A stretch of 64,000 nt of DNA from Ferrimonas sp. YFM (GTDB lineage: Bacteria; Pseudomonadota; Gammaproteobacteria; Enterobacterales; Shewanellaceae): assembly GCF_030296015.1 (NCBI RefSeq), contig NZ_AP027368.1, positions 310,001 through 374,000 on the forward strand. Direction: 5' to 3'. How positions within the stretch are numbered: the first letter of the stretch is position 1; each line of letters opens with the position of its first letter. The notes below the pieces were generated by a model. That model ran no database searches. It saw nothing but the letters and a program-made list of their open reading frames with translations, and was not told where the DNA came from. This document shows positions 54,975 to 56,944 of the stretch, one piece after another. A program made the translations under genes and the position numbers.

Positions 54975-55739
54975 TTGGAACTCGCTCAGCAGAATGAGAT
55001 CACCCGGCTGGCGGTCAGAGCCGCTCAGCTGATGTTGGCCTGGGGGGCCGAAAGTGAACTGGTGGAAGACGTGGGCCAGCGTCTGGGGGTGGCCCTGGGG
55101 GTCGAGAGCGTGGAGTTGTCCATCTCCTCCACCTCCCTGGTGCTGACCACCCTCTACCAGCAGCGCTGCGTCACCACCACCCGTCGCCTGCGGGACCATG
55201 GCCTGAACATGGACATGGTGTGTGAAGTGCAGCGCATCTGCGTCATGGCGGAGAAGGGCCTGCTGGACCTGGATCAGGTGGGCCGCAAGCTTCGTCAGCT
55301 CAAACCCAAAACCTGGAACCGCTGGCTGGTGGTGGCGATCATCGGCCCCTCCTGCGGCAGCTTCGCCTACCTCTTCGGCGCCGACGATACCGCGGTGATG
55401 CTGACGGTGCTGGCCTCCTGCATCGGCATGGTGGTGCGTCAGCAACTGGCCAAGGGCCATTTCAACCTGCTGATCAACTGGGCGGCCACCGCCTTTGTCA
55501 CCACCTTGGTGGCCCGGCTGGCGGCCATGGTGTGGCCCACCCCGGACGCCGAGGTCGCCATGGCGGCGGCGGTGCTGATGCTGGTGCCCGGTTTTCCTCT
55601 GCTCAATGCCATCGCCGATATGGTCAAGGGGCATTACAACGTCGGCCTGGCCCGCTGGGGGCAGGCGACCCTGATGACCGCCTCCGCCGCCATCGGCATC
55701 ACCCTGGCGATGCAACTGACCGGGATGGGGTGGATATGA
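54975..55739 (+). CDS. yjjP: Threonine/serine exporter family protein, large subunit (YjjP)
   Basis: 254-residue protein homologous to the N-terminal part of ThrE. The first 115 residues are cytoplasmic, including GAESELVEDVGQRLG and SVELSISSTSLVLTT; several membrane helices follow, with AAAVLMLVPGFPLLNAIADMVKGHYNVGLARW as the hallmark. A TTG at 54975 with GGGGAG at 7-nt spacing is the best start; a GTG at 54954 lacks a ribosome site. In E. coli YjjP works with YjjB in succinate export; substrate here is unknown. It overlaps yjjB as ATGA. Confidence 0.9.
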   Translation: MELAQQNEITRLAVRAAQLMLAWGAESELVEDVGQRLGVALGVESVELSISSTSLVLTTLYQQRCVTTTRRLRDHGLNMDMVCEVQRICVMAEKGLLDLDQVGRKLRQLKPKTWNRWLVVAIIGPSCGSFAYLFGADDTAVMLTVLASCIGMVVRQQLAKGHFNLLINWAATAFVTTLVARLAAMVWPTPDAEVAMAAAVLMLVPGFPLLNAIADMVKGHYNVGLARWGQATLMTASAAIGITLAMQLTGMGWI

Positions 55740-56197
55740 ACCTGCTGCAGTTGCTGATCAACGGTGCCATCGCCGCCATCCCGGCGGTGGGCTTTGCCAT
55801 GGTATTCAACGTGCCCGGGCGCTTCCTGTGGCGCTGTGGCCTGGCCGGTGCCGTCGGCCACATGGTCCGAGGCCTGTGTATGACCTGGGGGGCTCCCATT
55901 GAGTGGGCCACCTTTGCCGCCTCGGTGACGGTCGGTTTCCTGTCGGTACGTTGGTCCAGGGAGACCCTGGCGCCGATGCAGCTGTTCGGAGTGGCCGCCA
56001 TCATTCCCATGATTCCCGGCACCTTCGCCTTCAACACCGTCATCGGCCTGGTGGAGATGAGCGCCCTGGGAGTGACCGCGGAGAGCCTGATGCCCGTGGT
56101 GTACAACGCCCTGAAGACCTTGTTTATTCTCGGTGCCCTGAGTGTGGGTCTGGCGATGCCCGGCCTCATCTGGTATCGGAACAAACCCATTATCTAG
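55736..56197 (+). CDS. yjjB: Threonine/serine exporter family protein, small subunit (YjjB)
   Basis: 153-residue membrane protein corresponding to the C-terminal half of ThrE, with about four or five helices (LLINGAIAAIPAVGFAMVF, FAASVTVGFLSVRW, GVAAIIPMIPGTFAFNTVIGL, FILGALSVGLAMPGLIWY). The IIPMIPGTFAF motif is characteristic. It forms the transporter with YjjP. Its stop codon (56195-56197) overlaps the CTAG that borders the small mobile-type element described next. Confidence 0.9.
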   Translation: MNLLQLLINGAIAAIPAVGFAMVFNVPGRFLWRCGLAGAVGHMVRGLCMTWGAPIEWATFAASVTVGFLSVRWSRETLAPMQLFGVAAIIPMIPGTFAFNTVIGLVEMSALGVTAESLMPVVYNALKTLFILGALSVGLAMPGLIWYRNKPII

Positions 56198-56443
56198 GGC
56201 ATGTTGACCTTTGCTGAATGTTTTTGCTTCAGCATCTGGTACTTGTGGCATTAAGATGCAAGGAGTCCGCTGCAACAGAGCCGTCACTCTGGAAGAGGGC
56301 AGCGCCCTTCGGGGCCGGACTGACGACAACCACTCAGCGTTGTTCGACTTCAACATAACACCACTATGTCTGCAGTCGAACGCCTTGATTGGTTGCCGTC
56401 ATCCTCGGCCAAAGACTAATCACCAAAGATAAACACGCCCTAG
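56194..56443. mobile_element. MITE-like element with terminal inverted repeats
   Basis: About 242 bp of non-coding sequence flanked by CTAG on both sides. Ends: CTAGGGCATGTTGACCTTTG reading in from the left and CTAGGGCGTGTTTATCTTTG reading in from the right, 17 of 20 identical. Inside are a large imperfect inverted repeat (56313-56349 with 56374-56410, 28 of 38 aligned positions by eye), a GCTGAA/TTCAGC hairpin at 56213-56233 and a GAGGGC-AGC-GCCCTT hairpin near 56296. No transposase. This is the structure of a miniature inverted-repeat element or an internally deleted insertion sequence; CTAG would fit the YTAR target of some IS5-group elements. Confidence 0.65.
56313..56410. repeat. Long imperfect inverted repeat inside the element
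   Basis: Arms of 37 bases (56313-56349 and 56374-56410) separated by 24 bases. They begin GGCCGGACTGACGACAACCA and, in complement, GGCCGAGGATGACGGCAACC. The arms would form a long bulged stem in RNA or single-stranded DNA. Confidence 0.7.
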
Positions 56444-56452
56444 GAACTACGG

Positions 56453-56944
56453 ATGCGCCTTTCCATGATTGCCTGCATGGCCTTTGATCGGGTCATCGGC
56501 AAAGAGAACCAGATGCCCTGGCATCTGCCCGCCGATCTGAAACACTTCAAAGCCATTACTATGGGCAAGCCCGTGGTGATGGGCCGCCGCACCTTCGACT
56601 CCATCGGTCGCCCCCTGCCTGGGCGCCGCAACGTGGTGATCTCCCGCAACCCCGAGTACCGACCCGAGGGAGTGACCCGGGTGGCCAGCATCGACGAGGC
56701 CCTGGTGCTGCTGGCCGATGAGGAGGAGGTGATGATCATCGGTGGTGGCCAGCTCTACGCCAGCCTGCTGCCGAAGGCGGATCGGCTCTACCTGACTCTG
56801 GCTCAGCTGCAGGTGGAGGGGGACACCCGCTTTCCCGATTACCAGCAATTGCAGTGGCGTGAACTGGAGCGGCAGATCCGACCCGCCGACGACGCTAATG
56901 CCTGTGATCTCCATTTCGTTACCCTGGAGCGGGTGCGCGACTGA
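56453..56944 (+). CDS. folA: Dihydrofolate reductase
   Basis: 163-residue NADPH-dependent enzyme making tetrahydrofolate. MIACMAFDRVIGKENQMPWHLPADLKHFK includes the substrate Asp27-equivalent (PADLKHF), VVMGRRTFDSIGRPLPGRRNVVISR the cofactor region, and MIIGGGQLYASLLPKADRLYLT the second. The ATG at 56453 has AGGA at 7-nt spacing. The ribosome site touches the right end of the MITE-like element, so folA has almost no sequence of its own upstream. Confidence 0.96.
   Translation: MRLSMIACMAFDRVIGKENQMPWHLPADLKHFKAITMGKPVVMGRRTFDSIGRPLPGRRNVVISRNPEYRPEGVTRVASIDEALVLLADEEEVMIIGGGQLYASLLPKADRLYLTLAQLQVEGDTRFPDYQQLQWRELERQIRPADDANACDLHFVTLERVRD

Follow-up and report, generated by a model that had tools for sequence, protein, structure and literature searches.

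A probable non-autonomous transposon (MITE) with a conserved folded core between yjjB and folA of Ferrimonas

Bacterial type II MITEs are geneless, multicopy elements of less than 500 bp with terminal repeats, a target duplication and a stable predicted transcript fold, as characterized in a review (PMC10969869). According to the same review, the QMITE2 element of Coxiella burnetii is flanked by target duplications of 7-9 bp and has a core of 113-145 bp with a strong transcript fold. The ERIC, RUP, BOX and Correia sequences, which are named in PMC10969869 and PMC2229807, are dispersed intergenic palindromic repeats regarded as mobile. The segment between yjjB and folA of Ferrimonas shares with the type II MITEs its small size, repeats, duplication, copy number, lack of a gene and predicted fold. 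However, paired changes conserve the core fold here in different genera and classes, the core is combined with several unrelated terminal repeats, and the passages of PMC10969869 consulted describe no such fold-conserving family with multiple ends. QMITE2 is likewise a small structured gammaproteobacterial MITE (PMC5896051 and PMC10969869), whereas the elements of the Ferrimonas type duplicate TA and are about 244-270 bp long. The likeness to ERIC, RUP, BOX and Correia lies in the dispersed, palindromic and intergenic character, but these repeats have other sequences and sizes and are set apart by their descriptions. A literature search for elements of this kind in Ferrimonas, Vibrio, Shewanella and Pseudoalteromonas found no paper that describes them. 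No Rfam family matches the element at the gathering score, the weak E-value matches falling outside it, and the novelty of the family, as judged against Rfam and the literature, is provisional.

The window, a stretch of 64,000 nucleotides, comes from a Ferrimonas genome of 4.66 Mb in one contig (G000). The element occupies 56197..56440 (+ strand, GGGC...GCCC, 244 bp) in the order hairpin 1, centre, hairpin 2; copies elsewhere stop at these borders, the flanks diverge outside them, and relatives carry an empty site. A TA target duplication lies on either side (56195..56196 and 56441..56442), assigned at both ends on the basis that all well-kept copies have TA at each end while the next outward base varies, and relatives have ATTTAGGGACTCATGATG, a sequence similar to the empty site reconstructed here, ATCTAGGAACTACGGATG. 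The left terminal inverted repeat, TAGGGCATGTTGACCTTTG (56195..56213, +), matches the ends of an 888-bp insertion sequence (IS) discussed below, and the right one, TAGGGCGTGTTTATCTTTG (56424..56442, -), was delimited by end comparison and by the genome-wide end pattern. The two ends CTAGGGCATGTTGACCTTTG and CTAGGGCGTGTTTATCTTTG are identical at 17 of 20 positions, each sits on a CTAG, and the repeats recur throughout the family; re-reading of 56194-56443 thus confirms what a sequence-only reading had reported of the ends. Neither Pfam nor NCBIfam gives a match for the single reading frame inside, which is 73 aa long, in agreement with the earlier view that no credible gene is present, and at 244 bp the element lies below the 500-bp limit for MITEs and carries no transposase. 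Upstream, yjjB (ThrE_2 family, 55736..56197, +) ends in the TAG at 56195-56197, so that its stop codon contains the left end of the element; downstream, folA (dihydrofolate reductase, 56453..56944, +) has its start codon 10 bp past the right TA and an intact AGGA ribosome-binding motif. Elsewhere in the window, a bacterial RNase P RNA of class A (RF00010, 16949-17326) is the only Rfam match at the gathering score.

The sequence-only reading had described an element of 242 bp bounded by CTAG, of which the element stands and the extent does not. The base outside TA is often unlike at the two ends of one copy (TTAG...CTAG, ATAG...CTAC), and, where a copy retains both ends, the base preceding the left TA changes independently of the one following the right TA. 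Duplication of CTAG as a 4-bp target is rejected on this ground; only TA is duplicated, which places the element proper at 56197-56440. The preferred site is YTAR, with Y before and R after the TA in 59 of 65 elements from F. senticii, Pseudoalteromonas and others, and the element would insert at the TA within YTAR and duplicate it.

Copies are widely dispersed. With the whole segment as a BLAST query, 28 matches are obtained in G000, about a dozen from long copies and the others from fragments, and the end pattern, with as many as 3 mismatches allowed, is found at 46 sites as opposed to none for the reversed control pattern, an excess that chance does not come near to explaining. The copies in G000 are only 73-84% identical to the one at yjjB-folA, which points to old insertions. 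F. senticii (G011) carries about 70 copies, with 70 ends of each orientation, and the control patterns give 0-2 matches. The same ends and core are thus found at many unrelated loci in both orientations, with TA/CTAG flanks in G000 and across the genus, as the earlier reading had proposed for a mobile element; a segment confined to this locus and conserved in all relatives, the outcome it had named as contrary, is not what was found.

Several variants accompany the full-length copies. Short elements of about 55-115 bp consist of the left end and left arm only (L018, L019, L023, L024, L025 and L028), several of them directly at gene ends; at the place orthologous to L023 in G005 (L076), the full-length element is present. 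Two copies (L068 in G010:C25 and L067 in G006:C4) lie just downstream of an apparent tRNA gene end (GGTTCGAATCCTGGTAGCCCAGCCA). In F. senticii, L106 and L114 represent a subfamily of 264-267 bp in which the tip loop of hairpin 2 contains an additional hairpin, about 20 bp in size.

To follow the insertion at yjjB-folA, FolA was located in 14 Ferrimonas genomes. The element is inserted at identical bases in three sister species, G000, G005 (FolA identity 95%) and G009 (86%), and in the G005 copy about 96 bp are deleted, with most of hairpin 2 gone. At least six other species (G006, G010, G001, G004, G003, G012 and G002) have the empty site expected by the sequence-only reading, in which yjjB runs into folA through a short spacer, and AATCATTTAGGGACTCATGATG of G006 corresponds to the reconstructed empty site ATTATCTAGGAACTACGGATG of G000. 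This distribution is explained by a single insertion before the three species separated, which would have entered the TA of the yjjB stop codon and been retained since. Because the G that opens the element completes the TA to TAG, the protein encoded by yjjB is unchanged and the insertion is harmless; the insertion would have recreated the stop codon and left the folA ribosome-binding site intact. The earlier remark that the left CTAG overlaps the yjjB stop codon is therefore correct, but its suggestion of a narrow escape from a different gene end gives way to a restored TAG.

The position within a stop codon recurs in the family. Among 63 Ferrimonas elements, a frame of at least 80 codons reads into the terminal TAG in frame in 24, whereas the two alternative frames give 7 and 6; among 29 elements of other genera, a count that omits 11 of 40 distant elements with failed or doubtful end-finding, the figures are 13 versus 7 and 4. 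Orthologous copies are included in these counts, and a first batch of 24 other-genus elements showed no bias (3 versus 1 and 3). The counts suggest that the elements prefer gene ends, and both target choice and the survival of harmless insertions fit such a preference.

When the order was searched with the ends, 108 of 295 genomes and 39 of 99 genera gave matches, which often form pairs spaced about 246-269 bp. In one genome of another genus (G069), two copies of an 888-bp element are present with the ends TAGGGTCTGTTGATCTTTG and TAGGGCGTGTTGATCTTTC and TA flanks, and this element encodes an IS5-family transposase of about 254 aa (DUF4096 and DDE_Tnp_1; NF033580, transpos_IS5_3, E 1.6e-79). 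F. senticii has one relative of it, 75% identical, with matching ends and one in-frame stop. A transposase of this kind is undetectable in G000, and the copies there may therefore be immobile now; among 18 further genomes that have the core, 4 contain remote IS5 transposases or fragments, and nothing closer was found in any of the 18. The full-length IS with these ends that the earlier reading had anticipated thus exists in a different genus and, in damaged form, in F. senticii, but none was found in the genome of the window. The 888-bp IS resembles the element in its terminal repeats (TAGGG[T/G]CTGTTGATCTTTG and TAGGGCGTGTTGATCTTT) and its TA duplication; it differs in coding for a transposase, and no likeness to the core beyond the ends was noticed on side-by-side reading. 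From the shared ends, target type and co-occurrence, we infer that the transposase of this IS moves the element; a DDE transposase of the IS5 family with specificity for TAGGGCgTGTTgAcCTTTG ends would then probably act on it in trans. As the IS interior was compared by side-by-side reading, the element appears to be a type II MITE whose core is not derived from the IS and does not look like its remnant. Of the two forms that the sequence-only reading had offered, a MITE or an IS with its transposase deleted, the MITE is borne out by the copies, the empty sites and the IS with the same ends, whereas the conserved core suggests that the element is not simply an IS that has lost its transposase.

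Taken as a whole, the segment is very probably a non-autonomous DNA transposon (MITE) with a conserved folded core, likely moved by an IS5-family transposase. On a different view of its origin, it would resemble a transposon in looks alone and be an operon terminator or, for folA, a leader or fixed regulatory RNA. Its strong fold (z -6.0 as RNA) and its retention 10 bp upstream of folA in three species agree with such a role, but the same ends and core occupy many unrelated loci in both orientations, relatives have empty sites, and G005 lacks most of hairpin 2 at this very place. Additionally, there is neither a terminator-like site on the + strand nor a promoter-like site, and Rfam offers no match to the element. 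The dispersed copies and empty sites refute a folA regulatory RNA as the origin of the segment, and we regard this explanation as very improbable.

The MITE might instead depend on an IS630/Tc1-type transposase. Transposases of this type use TA and prefer CTAG, which agrees with the TA duplication in YTAR, and G000 contains three identical IS630-type elements. However, the ends of the G000 element (CTAAATAGCTG...) are unrelated to those of the MITE, none of the 13 remaining Ferrimonas genomes has a DDE_3 transposase, not even that of F. senticii with its approximately 70 copies, and the matching ends belong to an IS5-family element. IS630 is rejected as partner because the ends differ, and a dependence of this kind is highly unlikely. 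The three IS630-type copies themselves (G000:1682839, 2948311 and 3102799; L126-L128) are identical, about 1170 bp long with CTAAATA ends, and form a recent burst unrelated to the MITE.

The folded core of this probable IS5-dependent MITE was analysed in two alignments, A1 with 31 non-redundant Ferrimonas elements and A2 with 15 elements from other genera. In the window copy, the hairpin-1 arm (56226..56304, +) is the variable part; alignment A1 and single folds show it to be near-constant in length, fast evolving and degenerate in Ferrimonas. In other genera it is a regular hairpin. The central mini hairpin (56305..56312, +) is of the CCC-UUC-GGG type and exhibits a CG/UA double change at the inner pair. 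Hairpin 2 (56313..56410, +), which is supported by covariation and by the match of a covariance model (R1, below), is the best conserved part and comprises an outer stem, an internal loop (CACTC..CGTTG / CGCCTTGATTG), an inner stem and a tip. The tip (56354..56368, +; consensus CGTAG-AACCA-CTATG) is partly decayed here, reading CATAA...CTATG.

Alignment A1 supports the terminal stem, the mini hairpin and the long hairpin 2, with 132 double-changed cells, as compared with 46 after shuffling and 8-24 when the structure was slid. Alignment A2 supports a full four-way junction with two long hairpins, in which 92.1% of the cells of 97 pairs are paired and 66 pairs show double changes (215 double-changed cells versus 65 shuffled and 32-50 slid; covariation score 0.437 versus 0.159 shuffled, with slid controls reaching no more than 0.101). 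Since RNAalifold derived the A2 structure as the consensus of this very alignment, the evidence leans on itself, which the slid and shuffled controls correct only in part. The unpaired internal loops (ACTCTnyGTyG / CGCCkyGATT) and the tips (nTAG-N5-CTAn) are kept while the stems diverge. The core of the family may accordingly be pictured as a predicted four-way junction in which a terminal stem meets two long hairpins and a third, small one of the CCC-NNN-GGG type.

Whether the folded molecule is RNA or DNA bears on how the paired changes arose. An RNA of the given strand would show more G-U than A-C mismatches, but with pairs whose commonest type is a wobble left out, the A-C and G-U counts are 50 versus 12 in Ferrimonas and 35 versus 34 in other genera. 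The wobble test thus gives no preference to RNA of this strand over DNA, and DNA-level pairing is a serious alternative for the stems. The paired stem changes could then reflect template-switch correction between the arms of a DNA palindrome and not selection on the fold, an explanation that competes with the fold part of the reading and leaves the MITE reading itself untouched. The mismatches without a G-U bias are what DNA-level pairing predicts; however, template switching alone would not keep internal loops and tips conserved across genera amid diverging stems, and we place its chances somewhat short of even. Under selection on the fold, we infer that the fold would be kept because it aids the spread of the element or renders it harmless to the host.

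The reach of the core was assessed with R1, a hairpin-2 covariance model derived from 13 elements outside Ferrimonas; E-values of such models are rough. In the 64-kb window it gives a single match, at the element (56307-56422, E 5e-15). It finds 13 places in G000. In a class-wide sample of 229 genomes, 26 have matches, and in a phylum-wide one of 249 genomes, 38 do, some of these outside the class. Relatives of the core are thus present in many families of Gammaproteobacteria and beyond the class, and a search of a plasmid collection gave one weak match, in Methylophaga frappieri. The class- and phylum-wide elements with locatable ends are mostly 263-282 bp long, and the same core is combined with at least five kinds of terminal repeat (TAGGGCCTGTTAACAC, TAGAGCCTATCC, TAGAGCCTGTCTCATAAAATCC, TATACCCAAGTGACC and AGGAACCTCCGATTG). 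Within G000, there are two loci at which the hairpin-2 tip of a TAGGG-type copy harbours a second element, of about 265 bp, which has the ends GTACCAACnCAA but shares the core motifs. These nested elements lie at L349 (G000:3071000-3072000) and L350 (G000:2001500-2002500), with L351 in G005, at least one being common to G005. Additionally, a shorter element near 2473481-2473561 (L348, G000:2473000-2474000) has the ends ATACCAACTTCATCAAATA and hairpin-2 motifs, and represents a third kind of end in G000.

The ends would likely have been exchanged between cores rather than slowly diverged. It is conceivable, although we are more inclined to doubt than to accept it, that the core is a mobile folded module, in which a four-way-junction fold with conserved loops and tips passes between terminal-repeat systems, thereby using several IS transposases across Pseudomonadota, and in which the fold, as single-stranded DNA or RNA, functions in the life cycle of the element.

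As a single insertion the element at yjjB-folA is ordinary; its interest lies more in the wide family to which it belongs, whose folded core is conserved. Since copies lie at gene ends, often exactly in stop codons, they bear on transcript 3' ends and operon spacing, as between yjjB and folA. The family also raises the testable question of why a transposon parasite needs a fold, and whether its cores move between transposase systems.
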